Shown: positions 4,965-24,400 of the stretch, in pieces
How positions within the stretch are numbered: the stretch's first letter is position 1
How the letters are laid out: the number at the start of each line of letters is the position of its first letter
Assembly (NCBI RefSeq): GCF_007860185.1
Contig: NZ_SJPY01000006.1
Coordinates: 124,845 to 188,844, forward strand
Source: Novipirellula aureliae
GTDB taxonomy: Bacteria; Planctomycetota; Planctomycetia; Pirellulales; Pirellulaceae
Length of the DNA: 64,000 bases
Direction: 5' to 3'
Notes under the pieces: generated by a model
The model's database searches: none
Told to the model about the DNA's origin: nothing
What the model saw: the letters and a program-made list of their open reading frames with translations, nothing else
Translations under genes and position numbers: made by a program

Positions 4965-5363
4965 TTTTTTTCGATCAAAAAGTGTGAGGAACGAGGGAAA
5001 AGGAGCATGATTAATCCTACAGCATATTTGCCGAGCAGCTCTTTTCTACCGCCAATTCTAACAATTGTAGAGCAAACGTGGGGGAATTTTTTAGCTTTAA
5101 CGGTTCTACGCATCAAATTGGCAAATCGTTTTGGAAACGGCTCCGAAATTCGGGCTTTGCTGCCTGCGGTCCCCCCCCTTGCCTCGAAGCCACTTGCCTC
5201 TCGGCAATCGGAGTCTCTCGGCAGACGGAAGCCTGCCATTGTAGTGGGGGGGCCCAGGAGTGAATTGCCAGGCATAATCATCCTGGGAACCCTATTCCAT
5301 TCCTGGGAACCATCATCCTGGGAACCACCATCCTGGGAACCATAAAAATTTAGAAATAATGAC
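4965..5363. other. intergenic region, no gene seen
   Basis: This region lies between a minus-strand gene start and the promoter at 5364. It holds a short G/C homopolymer patch near 5167-5173 and 5246-5252 and a tandem repeat at 5277-5343. Open frames here have no recognisable coding character. Confidence 0.5.
5277..5343 (+). repeat. imperfect tandem repeat of CATCCTGGGAACCA
   Basis: Four copies of a CCTGGGAACC core occur in 67 bases, two of them in perfect CATCCTGGGAACCA context. The repeat ends about 20 bases before the promoter at 5364. It looks like slipped-strand expansion; a role as a protein-binding array is possible but unsupported. Confidence 0.7.
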
Positions 5364-5392
5364 TTGTCTCAGGATTGCCTGCTGGTGATAAT
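5364..5392 (+). promoter_or_regulatory. sigma-70-like promoter
   Basis: TTGTCT at 5364-5369 and GATAAT at 5387-5392 are separated by exactly 17 bases. The -10 matches TATAAT at five of six positions. A start near 5399 would give a transcript of about 285 bases ending at the terminator at 5635-5682. Confidence 0.5.
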
Positions 5393-5500
5393 GGGCCTAT
5401 CGGGTCGCGATAACGCGTCGCGACAGTTACCTTTCCGAACGATCGTTCGCTCGACTCTGGTTGGCACCTGAGCGATCGGATCGTCGAACCAAGTTTGAAA

Positions 5501-5512
5501 AAGGAGGTGATC
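5501..5512 (+). promoter_or_regulatory. unusually strong Shine-Dalgarno sequence
   Basis: AAGGAGGTGATC pairs over all 12 bases with the standard 16S rRNA 3' end. Most genes in this window show no Shine-Dalgarno sequence at all, so this site stands out. The nearest starts are GTG at 5515 (seven bases after GGAGG) and GTG at 5507, inside the motif itself. Confidence 0.55.
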
Positions 5513-5634
5513 AAGTGGAATATTGCTGTACTTGCCAACGGGGTGGTAACCCGTAGTTAAAGTCGGCGGGCTGATGCTTCGGCGCAGCCACCCCACCCTC
5601 GCGATCATCTTCTCATAGAGAACGCGAGAACATG

Positions 5635-5682
5635 CCCGTTTGCTGAGTCCACGACTTTTGGACTTGGCAAGCGGGTTTTTTT
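5635..5682 (+). terminator. strong Rho-independent terminator
   Basis: CCCGTTTGC (5635-5643) pairs with GCAAGCGGG (5667-5675), with one G-U pair. Inside it AGTCCA (5646-5651) pairs with TGGACT (5659-5664). Seven T follow at 5676-5682. It lies about 100 bases upstream of the coaD start and on its strand, so it either ends an independent small RNA or attenuates coaD. Confidence 0.85.
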
Positions 5683-5780
5683 ATGGATTTCTTCCTACTC
5701 GCATCGCTAGCCATTCCATTTTACAATTTGGATGCCGCCGCTGCTCGCCTTGCTTTCCTACTCGTTTTGGTTTTCCGTTC

Positions 5781-6281
5781 ATGCCGACTCAACGCACTGC
5801 CGTCTACACTGGGTCGTTTGATCCAATCACGCTTGGTCATCTTCATATCATCGACCGAGCCGCAAAGCTGTTCGACACGTTGGTAATTGGCATCGGCATC
5901 AATGCGGACAAACGCCCGTTGTTCGATACTTCGCAGAGAGTGGCTTTGGTTGAAACGGTGACCCGTCCATTTGAAAACGTTGTCGTCGATGTCTTTTCGG
6001 GTCTAGCGGTCGATTTTGTCCGCAAAATGAATGCGCATATCATGGTTCGCGGGATCCGTCCGCTGACCGATACCGCAGGCGAATTCACGATGATGATGGC
6101 CAACCACCAACTCGATCCAGGCATTGAAACCGTTTTCTTAATGGCGGATGAGCAGTACACGCACGTCAGTAGTTCGCTGCTCAAACAGATCGCATCGGTT
6201 AGCGATGATGACGGACAATTGGCGAAGTTTGTGCCTTCGCAAGTCATTCCCGCGCTAAGAGCTCGGATGAAGAACCACTAG
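5781..6281 (+). CDS. coaD: phosphopantetheine adenylyltransferase
   Basis: CoaD transfers AMP from ATP to 4'-phosphopantetheine to give dephospho-CoA, the penultimate step of CoA synthesis in the cytoplasm. The 166-residue protein matches the usual length of about 160. It begins with YTGSFDPITLGHLHII, which contains the nucleotidyltransferase TxGH motif at about residues 18-21, and has the C-terminal HVSSSLLKQIAS signature. The frame stays open upstream to 5640, but only the ATG at 5781 gives the canonical N-terminus. No Shine-Dalgarno is seen. An intrinsic terminator lies about 100 bases upstream, so the gene needs its own promoter or readthrough. Confidence 0.95.
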   Translation: MPTQRTAVYTGSFDPITLGHLHIIDRAAKLFDTLVIGIGINADKRPLFDTSQRVALVETVTRPFENVVVDVFSGLAVDFVRKMNAHIMVRGIRPLTDTAGEFTMMMANHQLDPGIETVFLMADEQYTHVSSSLLKQIASVSDDDGQLAKFVPSQVIPALRARMKNH

Positions 6282-6460: not shown

Positions 6461-8053
6461 ATGACGCTCTCGAACCCACCGAAACTGATTCCTCGTGGAC
6501 TGATTTCCTACTCTCTCGTTGCAGTTCTCCTTGCGGTTGGTGGGTGCCGTGCTTCGCGTCCAACAGGCAACCTGTTCCAAGTCACGCGACACGATCAGGG
6601 GGAGATCACCGACGTCGAATCACCTCGGCAACGTTTGGCATCGACGAAACAACGCGTGGGCTCCGTTTTTGGAGGTGTTTCCGAACAGGATCGTTTGCAG
6701 GCAAATGGAGCGGAGACGGGGCAGGAAACGAGTCCCCAAATGACCCGGCAAGTCTCCTACAGCGAAGACCACGAAGATGCCAACCGAACAAATCCATCCG
6801 CTCCTGGACATTCATCGTCTAAGCCAACGGATAAACTATCTGACGAAGAATTGATGGCGGCTTTTGAGGGGACATCGCCGGAGATCAAAGAGCAAGCACT
6901 CCGACAATTGGTTGCCGTCCTATCGCGGAATGCAGAAACGACAAAGCAACCCGCTGCGTTAACCGATGCGATCGAAGAATCCGTCCAAAAAAATTACAAT
7001 CTACCGAAAGCCAAAAACCAACCGGCGACAGAACCGTTAAAACGATTGGCCATGCAACCGGAATCTCAAAGCAAGGCATCGAGTCAATCCACGGCCAAGA
7101 CGTCGGCTGAGCCGAGTGAAGATGTTTTTGCAGATTCTAATGATGACCAAGAAACATCATCGGAGCTGGCCGTCGCCGTGGTTGAAAGTTTAAGCGACCA
7201 CAAACCAGAATCAACCCCAGAATCAACCCCAGAATCAACCCCAGAATCAACCCCAGAATCAATCGTAGTTCGGACGGTCTCGGCGAGCGGACCTCAAGTG
7301 GACGAGGGGATGGTTGCCAATGCCGTCGTCGAGTCACCCATCGATGCTGATTCGTTATCCGCTGAAATGCTATACGAGTCTTTGCTCAAGCGGATATCAA
7401 CACCCGTGGAAGGTGAAAGCGAAGCGGATCGAGCGCGGCGAATGATCACCGCTCGGCATTTAATGGTACTAGCAGGAAACCCCGATGCCGCCGTCGGAAA
7501 GATCGATGGGATGACGGACAAGGAACAAGAATACCTGCGCCATCAATTGCTCGGACTTTGGACGATGGTAGACCCCGAAGGGCACCCGGTGCAAAGCCGC
7601 CGATTCAGTTCGGCGCTGCCGCAGCTCCGCGAGGCGACCCGATACCTAGCTGCGGCGACCGATTCTCTTGAAGTCCGAGCCTTGGCATTCTGTACCGAGA
7701 TTTTGGCGTATGGCCAGATCAAGAAATTTGAAAGCAGTGTCTTTAAGCCTGCTCAACAAGTCATTCTCTACTGCGAAATCGACAACTTTGTAGCATCGAA
7801 AGTCGATTCGGGGTATCAAACCCATCTGCAAGGCAGCTACGACATTCTCGATTCAGAGAACCACAAAGTTGCCAGCCAATTATTGCCCGCGGATAAACAG
7901 GTGTCTTCCAACTATTTGCGTGACTACTTCATCGCCTATCAGATGCACCTGCCGCAAAATTTAGCGGTTGGGAAATATCGTCTGCAGCTAACGATGGAAG
8001 ATATCGAAGGCAAAAAGTATGGACAGTCGAGTATCGCTTTCGAAATTCGATAA
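6461..8053 (+). CDS. secreted lipoprotein, unknown function
   Basis: This 530-residue protein has a lipoprotein signal peptide: a positively charged start, a hydrophobic core and a lipobox ending AVGGC at about residue 29. After a disordered, Ser/Thr/Glu-rich region (about 30-280) containing five Glu-Ser-Thr-Pro units, an alpha-helical part (about 290-420) and a beta-rich C-terminal domain (about 425-530) follow. The C-terminal domain speaks of a binding module facing the periplasm or outer membrane. No family is recognised. It lies between coaD and dapF on the same strand with gaps of 179 and 271 bases, so an operon is not evident. Confidence 0.8.
   Translation: MTLSNPPKLIPRGLISYSLVAVLLAVGGCRASRPTGNLFQVTRHDQGEITDVESPRQRLASTKQRVGSVFGGVSEQDRLQANGAETGQETSPQMTRQVSYSEDHEDANRTNPSAPGHSSSKPTDKLSDEELMAAFEGTSPEIKEQALRQLVAVLSRNAETTKQPAALTDAIEESVQKNYNLPKAKNQPATEPLKRLAMQPESQSKASSQSTAKTSAEPSEDVFADSNDDQETSSELAVAVVESLSDHKPESTPESTPESTPESTPESIVVRTVSASGPQVDEGMVANAVVESPIDADSLSAEMLYESLLKRISTPVEGESEADRARRMITARHLMVLAGNPDAAVGKIDGMTDKEQEYLRHQLLGLWTMVDPEGHPVQSRRFSSALPQLREATRYLAAATDSLEVRALAFCTEILAYGQIKKFESSVFKPAQQVILYCEIDNFVASKVDSGYQTHLQGSYDILDSENHKVASQLLPADKQVSSNYLRDYFIAYQMHLPQNLAVGKYRLQLTMEDIEGKKYGQSSIAFEIR
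7205..7264 (+). repeat. 12-bp tandem repeat encoding Glu-Ser-Thr-Pro
   Basis: Five head-to-tail copies of CCAGAATCAACC lie within the lipoprotein gene; the last ends ATC instead of ACC. Because the unit is a multiple of three the frame is kept, and the copies lie in the disordered linker. Confidence 0.9.
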
Positions 8054-14332: not shown

Positions 14333-15830
14333 GATGACGCCAGCAACTCCTCGAAGCCGTCGTCGCTAACGTCACGACCGCCTATAAACTCCGTGCCTTC
14401 GTGCCTCTGTGAGAGCCCCGCCGCCCGGCAATGAATCTCTCACAGAGGCACGGAGTCACAGAGATAGACAAGAGACCATGGAAAAACATCGTGTCGCCTA
14501 GAAATATTCGCCACCGATTGGAGGCGTGCGGCGCGAAACCAAAGGTGATACGCGATCCGCATGAATCGAGCCTCGTGGTGCGTGCCTCGTGCACGCACCC
14601 AGGGAGAACGCATCGACGATGATCCTCTTGAAACGGTCTTCGAACGAATGTCTTTCAGGTTGCCTCGAAGGTTCGAGTCAAAATAATGGTCGGCAACGTC
14701 GTCTGGCGTGATGCCGCGAGCGTCCATCACTTTCGGAATCCGGCTCGTCGAAGTCGTCGGATGTGGTTCGTTGTCGATGATCAGCACGTCGCCCCATTCG
14801 GTGTCGAATCGACCGAGCCACGGCCGGCCTTCGGCCTCTTTGCTCGGTGCCGACGATGGGCCGATTCGTGAACGTCATCCATCAATTCTCGACCGACGTC
14901 CCATTGTTTTCAGGCCGGAGGCCGACATATCTTTGCCGGTGGTGTAAGCCACCGAATCCAAGGCGTTTAGGTCGCCGCAAGGCCGGAGGCCGACACATCG
15001 ATCGCGGGTGTGTCGCCCTCCGGGCTAGTGGTTCGGTTGTCATCCGCTGCCGGTGGCTCACGCAACCGGCAAGGATGTTTCGGCCTCCGGCCTGTGGGGC
15101 GATGGTGCAACGATCCACGGATCGAAGGGCCACGCCACCGGCAAGAATGTTTCGGCCTCCGGGCTAGCTCTGCTGAGGAGCAACTTGCTTAGGGACAACG
15201 GGGTCAGGGAGGGAAGAATGTCTTGCTTGGCTTTGATAAAACGGCTTGTTTTGCCGAGGTTTATTTTTGAACGTCCGATTGCCGATGCACCGAAAACATC
15301 CTTTTTGCACCTCGGTGCCTGAAAAACCTACCCTTCGGTACTTGGGATGGATGAATCAAACCACGGATTCTTCGGTGGAGCCAATAAACAATTGCATCCC
15401 TGGGTGATGGTTGTCAGGCGATTCGCTCGTCCAATTATCGACGGCGCTTCGGAAGCACTCAATGCCAAGCTCAAATTCATCGTACACCTTCCCAATATCG
15501 CCCTTTAGAAACAGCGTCAGCGTAGCGAGCAATTTCTCACTGTCGGAATCAACTCGTTCTCGCACGTCTGATTTGTTTTTGATCCACTGATCGTCCAGGT
15601 CCTTTAGCGCTTGACTGAACGTCTTAATGCGGTCACGCAAGTTGTCGTTGAGTTTAAAGCAAAGTCTGCTATCCATCCGATCGACAAAGCGCAAACGATC
15701 TCCCATTTGAGATTAATGGGTCTGCAAGTTGGGCTGCTGATCAATTTCCATGAAGTGAAGTTGATCGACTGGCTCAAGGCGCTTTCCGGCGGTGCCGACA
15801 AGATCGCGGGCCATGATCCCCATGGTCTTC
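14333..15830. repeat. 1.5-kb tandem duplication, copy 1
   Basis: The unit begins GATGACGCCAGCAACTCCTC and recurs at 15831 and 17327 (spacing 1498 and 1496 bases). Copies differ by scattered substitutions and single-base indels. Each starts with a 15-bp perfect inverted repeat, GTGCCTCTGTGAGAG ... CTCTCACAGAGGCAC (14401-14415 with 14437-14451 here). Next come several GGCCGGAGGCCGACA-type short palindromes, a 63-bp dispersed element (15320-15382) and a minus-strand open frame. This copy has a TAA inside that frame. Confidence 0.92.
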
Positions 15831-15940: not shown

Positions 15941-17326
15941 AGAGGCACAGAGTCACAGAGATAGACAAGAGACCATGGAAAAAAATCGTGTCGCCTAGAA
16001 ATATTCGCCACCGATTGGAGGCGTGCGGCGCGAAACCAGAGGTGATACGCGATCCGCATGAAACGGGCCTCGTGGTGCGTGCCTCGTGCACGCACCCAGG
16101 GAGAACGCATCGATGATGATCCTCTTGAAACGGTCTTCGAACGAATGTCTTTCAGGTTGCCTCGAAGGTTCGAGACAAAATAATGGTCGGCAACGTCGGC
16201 TGGCGTGATGCCGCGAGCGTCCATCACTTTCGGAATCCGGTTCGTCGAAGTCGTCGGATGTGGTTCGTTGTCGATGATCAGCACGTCGCCCCATTCGGTG
16301 TCGAATCGACCGAGCCACGGCCGGCCTTCGGCCTCTTTGCTCGGTGCCGACGATGGGCCGATTCGTGAACGTCATCCATCACTTCTCGACCGACGTCCCA
16401 TTGTTTTCAGGCCGGAGGCCGACATATCTTTGCCGGTGGTGTAAGCCACCGAATCCAAGGCGTTTAGGTCGCCGCAAGGCCGGAGGCCGACACATCGATC
16501 GCGGGTGTGTCGCCCTCCGGGCTTGTGGTTCGGTTGTGATCCGCTGCCGGTGGCTCACGCAACCGGCAAGGATGTTTCGGCCTCCGGCCTGTGGGGCGAT
16601 AGTGCAACGATCCACGGATCGAAGGGCCACGCCACCGGCAAGAATGTTTCGGCCTGCGGCCTAGCTCTGCTGAGGAGCAACTTGCTTAGGGACAACGGGG
16701 TCAGGGAGAGAAGAATGTCTTGCTTGGCTTTGATAAAACGGCTTGTTTTGCCGAGGTTTATTTTGAACGTCCGATTGCCGATGCACCGAAAACATCCTTT
16801 TTGCACTGCGGTGCCTGAAAAACCTACCCTTCGGTACTTGGGATGGATGAATCAAACCACGGATTCTTCGGTGGAGCCAAAAAACAATTGCATCCCTGGG
16901 TGATGGTTGTCAGGCGATTCGCTCGTCCAATTATCGACGGCGCTTCGGAAGCACTCAATGCCAAGCTCAAATTCATCGTACACCTTCCCAATATCGCCCT
17001 TCAGAAACAGCGTCAGCGTAGCGAGCAATTTCTCACTGTCGGAATCAACTCGTTCTTGCACGTCTGATTTGTTTTCGATCCACTGATCGTCCAGGTCCTT
17101 TAACGCTTGACTGAACGTCTTAATGCGGTCACGCAAGTTGTCGTTGAGCTTAAAGCAAAGTCTGCTATCCATCCGATCGACAAAGCGCAAACGATCTCCC
17201 ATTTGAGATTGATGGGTCTGCAAGTTGGTCTGCTGATCAATTTCCATGAAGTGAAGCTGATCGACGGGCTCAAATCGCTCTCCGGCGGTGCCGACAAGAT
17301 CGCGGGCCATGATCCCCATGGTCTTC
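15831..17326. repeat. 1.5-kb tandem duplication, copy 2
   Basis: Second copy of the unit at 14333. It keeps the inverted repeat at 15898-15912 / 15934-15948, the GGCCGGAGGCCGACA palindromes, the 63-bp dispersed element (16816-16878) and the minus-strand frame, here without the internal stop. Differences include one T lost from a T run near 16760. Confidence 0.92.
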
Positions 17327-21415: not shown

Positions 21416-24400
21416 TAACGCCCGCTCCCCAGGCTTTCGTAATACTTGCGTACTGGTTCCGTAAACTCCGCTGGCACTGGATCGCGATCGATTGGAACGG
21501 GAGCATGCTTGTCAGCGGAACGCCTCAGCAGCTCTTCAGCAACGTTGCGTTTGAGTTCACGCAGCGGCTGAGCGATCATTTCCTCGATCGAGGACCACTG
21601 AGGATCTTTCGAGTGACGGCGGAAATCGAGACGTGCTTCGCGAGCTCGGTCGCGAATGCGAGCTGCCTGGGAACGAAGCTCCGGATCCTCAACCATCTCC
21701 TCGACGTCACGGAGCCGATCCGACCAGTCTTGAAATCCATCTCCGGTGATCGGCGACCCGCCAGGGCGGTTACCCGCAAACTGGCTCAGCTCATCGCCTT
21801 CTCCGCGGCCTTCCGATCCAGGGCGTCCCTCGCCCCCTTGCTGACGTTCGCCACCTTGCTGGCCCTCTTCTCCTTGTTGCCCCTCTTCTCCTTGTTGACG
21901 CTCGCCACCTTGTTGGCCCTCGCCACCTTGTTGACGCTCGCCTCCTTGTTGACGCTCGCCTCCTTGTTGACGCTCGCCTCCTTGTTGACTCTCGCCTCCT
22001 TCTTGACTCTCGCCTCCTTGTTGACTCTCATTTCCTTGTTGGCCCTCGCCACCTTGTTGACGCTCGCCTCCTTGTTGACGCTCGCCACCTTGTTGACGCT
22101 CGCCTCCTTGTTGGCCCTCGCCACCTTGTTGACGCTCGCCACCTTGTTGGCCCTGGTTTTGTCCGCGGCCCGAAGTCGAATCTTGCGGATCTTGCTCACT
22201 GGGCTCAGCCGATGGTTGGCCTTGCCGCGGCTGCGACGCTTCCTCGCCGGGTTGACCAGTTTGTTCGGCGTCACTTTGATCACGACGTCCTGGATTGGAT
22301 CGTTCGATCTCTTCATCCAAGCTTTTCGACAACTGTTCGAGTTCGCTGAGGGCACGTTGCAGCGCCTCGGTCTCATTTCCGAGCACGGATTCGGCTGCTT
22401 GCTCCAGATCTTCACGCAACTCGTCGATCCCTTCCCTCGCCTCGCGTTCGAATTCACGCGCCTGCGGATCGAACCCACGATTAAACAACTCCGACGTATT
22501 CTGCAACTGTTCTTCGACTTGCCGTTGCTTTGTTTTGCGATACGAATCGTATAGTTTTTGCGCGAGCAGTGGTTCGGCTGTTTCCGCCTCCTCAACGGTC
22601 TCCTGCATCTGATCGAGTAATTCGCCAAGACGTTGCTCTTGACTTTCGAGCGTATCGAGAATTTGTTCTCGCATGTCATCGTCCCGTAGTCCTGGTTGGC
22701 CGCCCCGCTCAACTTCTTTCAGCTGCTCGGCGAGTTGTTCTTGTTGTTGATCCAATTCTTGAGCCTCGCGTCGCATATCGCGAACCGAGTCGCTAAACTC
22801 GCTCGCCGCACGCTGACGAAACTCGTCACGCATCTCTTCGAACTCGCGTTCGGCGCGTGTACCGGATGTCAGCGCTTCGGCGGCATCGTCTTGCTGCAAC
22901 GCCTCGGTGGCCCGGCGAACGTTTTCCCGTGTCTGTTCAAGCTGCTCGGAAGCCTCCTGCATGCTCTCTTGGTTCTCGGGTTGCTGCATTCGCTCGGACA
23001 ATTCATCGGTCTCGCGCAGCAGGTCTTGCTGCTGGTCACGGAGCCGTTTCAGTTGACGCTTGATCTCTTCCTGTTCTTCTTCCGTATCGGCCTCTTCCAA
23101 TGCGGACTGTAGTTGTGCGAGTTCCTTGTTCAAGTCTTCCTGGCGACGTGCTAGGTCGCGAAGCCGATTGAGTACTTGGCGGACTTCCCGCTGTTCCTCC
23201 TGGGCCGGCGTTTCCTGCGCCTGTTGCTGAGTTTCGTACCGGTTTTCATCTTGATTCAACTCCAATTGATCGAGCTGCTGTTGCCGCTGTCGGGCGGAGG
23301 CACTCGAACTGCGTTGTTGCTGCTGTTGCTGCTGCGATTGTTGTGACTGAACGACCTCAAACTCGCGAGCCCGAAGTTTCAGCAGCGCCCCGTAGGCAGA
23401 CTGTGCAGCGGACAGGGCGGGGGCCAGCGGATCGGTCTGATTGTCGGCTTCGGCAGACGTCAATTCGGCCATAGCCTTCTGCATGTGGGTGCGAACAATA
23501 TCGACAAATGTTTTCGATTTGGGATCCACGATTCCTTCGTCCAGTTCGGCGAGCTTGTCGATCGCTTCGGCCTGCGATTCCATTAGCAGCAGCGCGTCGC
23601 CCGCAAACTCAGCACTGGGTTGGTCACCTTGTTCGCGTCGCAGGACCGTCCAGGTCGCATTGATGATCTCCTTCTGCAACTCTGCCAATTCCAACGTCTG
23701 CTCCGCGTTTTGGCCTGCCTGCGCAGCCTGGTCTGACTGAGGAGGTTGAGGGGACTGAGCGGACTGGCCACCGGGTGGCGGCTCGCCCTCCCGATAGATC
23801 TCCTCAAACGGTCGCACTTCGGCAAAATACAGATCGCTATACGTGCGTCGGAGCTTACCATCGGGACCAATGTCGTCGGCCCAGACATAATAGGACAACA
23901 ATTGATCGGGCTCGGCATCAAGTGCTTCAAACTCGACCACATAATCGATCTGCTTCTTTTCGCCACGCGCAATCGACTCACCCAAACTGACATCCCGACT
24001 CGGTTGATCGGCGAAAACGTAAGTCAGCCCGACCTCCTCGATGCCGAAGTCATCGTGCACTTCCGCAGCGATCGACAGCTCCTCCAGTGGCGAGACGACC
24101 ACGTCCCGCGCGAATGCGAGTTTCATTTTGGGCGGTTGATTGGCCAGCATCCGGGCCAGGAGTTCGGGAGGATATTTGTTCTCGCGACCGTCGTCATCGG
24201 TCAATTTGACGGTGAAACGCTGCGTCTTCTGGAGATCGATCTCCGCCGATAAGGCGCCGGAAATGTCGGGGTCGCTGTGCAAGACCACCCGCTCACCTTC
24301 CCTCGTGACCAACTCACCGAAGGCTATCGGTTTGTTAACGAAACAGATCCACTTCACCAGCGTCCCCTGGACCGCCGATACACGAACCGTGTCTTCGACT

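Follow-up and report, generated by a model that had tools for sequence, protein, structure and literature searches.

A putative translation-gated regulatory RNA with an embedded short reading frame in planctomycetes of the class Planctomycetia

The window analyzed here is a stretch of 64,000 nt from the forward strand of Novipirellula aureliae (assembly GCF_007860185.1, contig NZ_SJPY01000006.1, positions 124,845–188,844), an organism placed by GTDB in Planctomycetota; Planctomycetia; Pirellulales; Pirellulaceae, and the element under study lies on its plus strand at 5364–5682. It begins with a predicted sigma-70-like promoter (5364–5392) in which the −35 hexamer TTGTCT (5364–5369) is separated by 17 nt from the −10 hexamer GATAAT (5387–5392), a pair with 9 of 12 matches that had been pointed out in an earlier sequence-only reading of this DNA. 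Four sites of this kind occur in the 3.5-kb region scanned as compared with a mean of 2.4 in shuffles, so the pair is weak by itself. Upstream of 165 homologs, the best promoter score averages 7.33 versus 5.54 in their own shuffles, and the positions of these best sites are scattered. Near-identical copies of TCCTGGGAACC are found immediately upstream of the promoter, at 5276–5343.

The remainder of the element comprises a series of predicted hairpins around a very short reading frame. The P1 hairpin (GTCGCGA...TCGCGAC, 5404–5424), which has a conserved ACGC loop and was delineated from the predicted fold and from homologs, is followed by a long stem domain (5425–5496) whose form is specific to the clade of the host genus. 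The Shine-Dalgarno (SD) sequence AAAGGAGGTGATC occupies 5500–5512, and the mini-ORF, delineated by homolog comparison, extends over 5515–5556, with a GTG start, 13 codons, (M/V)EYCCTCQRGGNP, and the stop codon TAG at 5554–5556. The last part of the ORF includes GGGGTGG (5540–5546), which forms the 5′ strand of a helix with CCACCCC (5588–5594), an assignment that draws on covariation for both strands and on a swap test for the first. The conserved sequence CGGCGGG (5564–5570) comes right after the stop codon, and the 3′ domain contains a hairpin CTG...CAG (5571–5587) that displays covariation and a CTCGCG/CGCGAG hairpin (5598–5628), delineated from homologs, that carries the SD partner GATCATC (5603–5609). 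The element ends in a predicted intrinsic terminator (5634–5682), an 18-pair stem at 5634–5676 followed by a T-run, as had been described previously; a terminator-like structure lies 3′ of the element in 150 of 163 homologs versus 13% in shuffles. The several stems noted in the same reading belong to a stable predicted fold: 5399–5682 (284 nt) has a predicted free energy of −121.3 kcal/mol (z −6.35), and none of 200 shuffles was equally stable.

The SD sequence is an exact complement over 13 nt of the 3′ end of the genome's own 16S rRNA, which extends the 12-base complement reported from the sequence, and the only further copy of this 13-mer in the 7.27-Mb genome is on the opposite strand of that 16S gene. 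The scarcity of SD sequences in the rest of the window was also borne out, because an SD match of at least 6 nt was found for 2 of the 40 long ORFs of the window, taking the first ATG as a proxy for the start. Planctomycetes are named among the phyla that include species with few SD genes in a study whose tables contain one planctomycete genome (PMC5397173). SD-like matches in the window are inflated by AAGGAGGCGAGC-like units with a repeat spacing of 18 bp on the minus strand at 21846–22145. On the same strand, identical SD-like matches at 15292–15558 and 16788–17054, offset from each other by 1496 bp, suggest a local duplication.

A DNA similarity search located the element in 28 of 60 related genomes at E ≤ 0.1, the weakest matches being short, chance-like pieces. 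Covariance model R1, which represents the core from the SD to the 3′ domain, matched 122 of 296 genomes of the host's order and 38 of 392 genomes of a phylum sample (both at E ≤ 0.01), and model R2, built from 100 homologs, matched 204 of 347 genomes of the host's class (E ≤ 0.001). The listed genomes have one copy each, with the exception of one (G208) that has two copies at contig ends. Beyond the class, the phylum sample gave two matches, both weak (E values of 3e-4 and 0.007) and both with an SD and a short ORF, a number that among 392 genomes is within chance expectation. An exact pattern search of named genomes returned 60 stretches, of which 58 have planctomycete titles, including some genera that we take to be planctomycetes, one has a title without a phylum (L187), and one is titled Chloroflexi (L214); the last gave no covariance-model match at E ≤ 1 and was taken as chance. 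A phage origin was rejected, as the same pattern had no matches in viral contigs. Two secondary local matches, L109 (+) and L112 (−), were left out of all counts.

When 25 near-complete genomes without a match were searched again with laxer filters, 18 had none at E ≤ 1, indicating that these genomes either can do without the RNA or carry a very diverged form of it, and four of the seven weak matches in the others resemble real, diverged homologs. An SD pattern is present in 9 of the 25, and in none of these does it open a comparable short ORF. One match-negative genome (G025) has congeners that carry the RNA. Together with the near-complete genomes that have no match, this indicates that the RNA is not universal.

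The homologs provide several measures of the conservation of the fold. In P1, six of the seven predicted pairs have changes on both sides among 28 homologs, and a hairpin with an ACGC-type loop is found in 154 of 171 5′ domains as compared with 10 after mononucleotide shuffling. A covariation test gave both-sided changes in 11 of 14 tested pairs, with 93% of cells paired, in alignment A4, which contains 100 homologs and was fitted to the very structure tested; this level of covariation was reached by none of 500 shuffles and by no slid version. In the first covariation helix, the SD part GGTGATC (5506–5512) can pair with GATCATC (5603–5609). In a swap test that is free of the structural fit of A4 and retains the relatedness among homologs in its z values, pairing with a homolog's own partner was stronger than pairing with one swapped in from another homolog: the z value is −8.1 for the SD and the 3′ domain, −11.5 for the ORF end and the CCACC strand, and −6.9 for a 5′ closing helix. 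The closing helix, ACUAGA/UCUAGU, is present in many other clades and is weak or not seen in the host genus's own clade. Measured against shuffles of the 3′ domain, pairing of the SD is modest, with p ≤ 0.05 in 37% of 167 homologs. A single RNAalifold run on the first 19 homologs together recovered little beyond the SD pairing, and the clades were therefore aligned separately. In several other clades (L008, L016, L047, and others) the SD-partner loop reads GGAUCACC, like the 16S 3′ tail, so that these RNAs contain an anti-SD stretch in addition to their SD. The comparison of homologs argues that the element is a conserved RNA structure, in agreement with the structured small RNA that had been proposed; the stems and the mini-ORF, on whose conservation in relatives that proposal had been staked, are both retained there.

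An ORF of 10–18 codons beginning 6–10 nt past the SD is present in all 160 unique homologs, as judged with a picker that has no residue preference, whereas the same criterion is satisfied by 7.7% of shuffles and by 24.6% when only the sequence downstream of the start codon is shuffled. The start codons are GTG in 112 homologs, TTG in 42, and ATG in 6, and the stop codons are TAG in 67, TGA in 55, and TAA in 38, in a tally for which the picker favors candidates with Q or GG. When the GGUGG-type motif was used as an anchor regardless of frame, 120 of the 141 homologs that could be scored (19 were unscored) had a stop at +7 nt, as compared with 0–22 of 141 at the other offsets from +2 to +15, the offset +7 being already known from the ORF tally. 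The second and third bases of the +7 triplet vary among the scored homologs, yet TGG is absent; of the 124 triplets starting with T, stops make up 120, versus 103.7 expected under independent bases.

Codon changes were counted along a minimum spanning tree that joins 78 unique ORFs of 13 codons. For the QRGG codons, a subset chosen after the per-column counts had been inspected, 34 of 56 single changes are synonymous versus 16.5 expected (z 5.2), and reading this stretch in the other frames gives no synonymous excess (z 0.3 and 0.4). Codons 2–7 have no such excess on this tree (z −1.6), and for codons 2–13 pooled there is no significant amino acid constraint (57 synonymous of 195 versus 49.1 expected, z 1.3). 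The distance from the start to the landmark could be scored in 86 of 124 ORFs (38 were unscored) and is a multiple of three in 81 and not in 5. The spacing between the stop and CGGCGG is uneven modulo 3 (72, 32, and 18) and is a weak control. In diverged clades the C-terminal end of the ORF reads NQGRLA, NQRRLA, QRWLLG, QRWLA, QGRLA, or GGLRR. QRW is found in 5 of 160 homologs, and the peptides of four loci (L261–L264) have the form M[CS]SxxQRWL[AV]; in the QRW homologs the AGGUGGC nucleotides are in a different frame and the end of the ORF is still directly behind the motif. One homolog (L102) has a shifted frame, which speaks against conservation of the ORF. As judged from these comparisons, the mini-ORF appears to be translated, and the constrained part of the peptide appears to be the Q-R-G-G core together with the position of the stop, the remaining residues being free. 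The sequence-only reading had considered a messenger for a 13–17-residue peptide with a cysteine cluster; its reading frame and stop position are indeed kept, whereas the cysteines are frequent across homologs and not constant, and they are not the conserved part.

In the host genome, 98 nt separate the end of the terminator from the start of coaD. Among 171 homologous loci, for which flanks of up to 1.5–2 kb were available (shorter at contig ends), coaD is nearby at one. No generally shared neighbor was found at the 171 loci, the largest protein clusters being those of 20, 19, and 15 loci, each of which, among the members listed, is confined to one family. Two smaller clusters, of 11 and 10 loci, also draw in one or two loci from a different family; side and strand vary among them, and they resemble large paralogous families. 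The occurrence of coaD at a single locus, the lack of a shared neighbor, and the frequency of terminator-like structures give the element the appearance of a stand-alone RNA gene.

No Rfam 15 model matched the strand of the element, at gathering thresholds over the whole window or at E ≤ 5 over 5000–5830; the sole match nearby is on the other strand at 5714–5812 and has an E value of 3.4, which is at chance level. The tmRNA model (RF00023) had no match at 5000–5830 at E ≤ 5, and the tmRNA of this genome is located elsewhere (C2:609579, 156.8 bits). The 6S RNA model (RF00013), which detects 5 of 14 control genomes, was matched neither at the element nor across the host genome, in agreement with a report on relatives (PMC5673643). 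In the open-licence full-text literature, judged chiefly by titles and the starts of abstracts, we recognized no description of this RNA.

Three known types of RNA share features with the element. The first is represented by the dual-function coding small RNAs SgrS/SgrT, RNAIII/hld, and Spot 42/SpfP. RyhB/RyhP is a further example (PMC5331693). Like these, the element would be a stand-alone structured RNA with a promoter, a terminator (both as sequence signals), and a small ORF that, on comparative evidence, is translated; unlike these, its ORF is kept class-wide, is under a 13-nt SD, and ends in one strand of a conserved helix. Leader-peptide attenuators, of the trp/his type or TnaC, resemble the element in having a short ORF, a ribosome position that could choose the RNA fold, and constrained residues near the stop, but the element has no conserved gene downstream that it might regulate (coaD is at 1 of 171 loci) and its transcript would be ended by the terminator. 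The third, tmRNA, is also a single-copy structured RNA with a tiny ORF, whereas the element has its own SD and start codon, does not match the tmRNA model, and coexists with a separate tmRNA gene. The Rhodopirellula-1 motif is listed for Planctomycetes, but also for Proteobacteria; its published description gives a probable cis-regulatory role, calls its status as an RNA ambiguous, and has no Rfam accession in the table (PMC2864571), and the motif and the element may be identical. The element is probably a new variant of the coding and regulatory small RNAs and would constitute a new RNA family.

The best reading of these data is a putative translation-gated regulatory RNA. Because both the SD and the ORF end have their helix partners in the 3′ domain, translation and the fold should exclude each other, and we put at roughly 0.5 the probability that the element is a class-wide, stand-alone structured RNA gene of ∼280 nt in which an embedded ORF of 10–18 codons is translated in mutual exclusion with folding. 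In the closed state, the 3′ domain would hold both the SD and the ORF end, and capture of the exceptionally strong SD by a 30S subunit would open it. A ribosome terminating at the stop codon, ∼7 nt past the GGUGG motif, would mask the 5′ strand of the helix, and in the 3′ domain this might release the CCACC strand together with the hairpin that follows it. In this way the RNA would be responsive to initiation and termination on its own mini-ORF, and the Q-R core next to the stop may slow release. Since the transcript is expected to end at the terminator and no gene is linked to it, it should act in trans, on itself, or on the ribosome; any action in trans could be mediated by the liberated 3′ domain or by the captured ribosome. 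A further proposal, that such trans-acting RNAs form a new class whose signal is the act of translating or terminating on the embedded mini-ORF, and which serves as a ribosome-operated switch that reports translation capacity or the state of initiation or termination in a phylum where SD sequences are little used, is a tentative possibility.

The strongest competing reading is an ordinary mRNA that encodes a functional micropeptide of ∼13 residues with a QRGG or QRW core, in which the structure only tunes translation and stability. The conserved ORF and stop position, the amino acid-level conservation of the QRGG codons, and the element's own promoter-like and terminator sequences are all compatible with such a messenger, but the N-terminal codons are free to vary (z −1.6), diverged clades end in QRWLA, QGRLA, or GGLRR, and the conserved RNA far exceeds what a 13-codon message needs, so that we regard it as rather unlikely. 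Alternatively, the peptide could be irrelevant and the RNA a decoy whose 13-nt SD holds the 30S subunit while a weak GTG or TTG start, found in 154 of 160 homologs, slows initiation. That this is the only perfect 13-nt SD site in the genome besides the 16S complement, in a phylum for which few SD genes are recorded (from tables with one planctomycete genome; PMC5397173), would be in keeping with a decoy, yet the fixed stop position and the QRGG codons are left unexplained and a single gene copy would demand very high expression; we consider it a minor alternative with a low probability.

A non-coding, base-pairing small RNA that contains the ORF by chance would account for the stable fold, the promoter-like and terminator sequences, and the lack of a linked gene, and is rendered quite improbable by an ORF present in 160 of 160 homologs versus 7.7% of shuffles and by the single offset that the stop occupies in 120 of 141. 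The translation-dependent attenuation of coaD that the sequence-only reading had entertained draws on the 98-nt distance in the host genome; with coaD close to only 1 of 171 homologous loci, gene order refutes it as a general function, and we consider it highly improbable.

If the translation-gated reading is correct, the ORF may be kept more for the site at which the ribosome stops than for most residues of the peptide, which would be an unusual coupling of translation to regulation by RNA, in a single-copy RNA that is distributed across a whole bacterial class and has no match in Rfam 15. Because this RNA carries the strongest SD of the host genome and the phylum is listed among those poor in SD genes, how and why the anti-SD is used there is directly testable. 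Another strong SD, AAGGAGGTGATT, was observed at ∼1500 on the minus strand of locus L268 (genome G051), ahead of the frame MLVLSRKESQRIRVG..., which we take to be CsrA. Downstream of the element in the window, a 12-bp repeat encoding ESTPESTPESTP is located at 7205–7260, within a predicted protein at 6461–8053.
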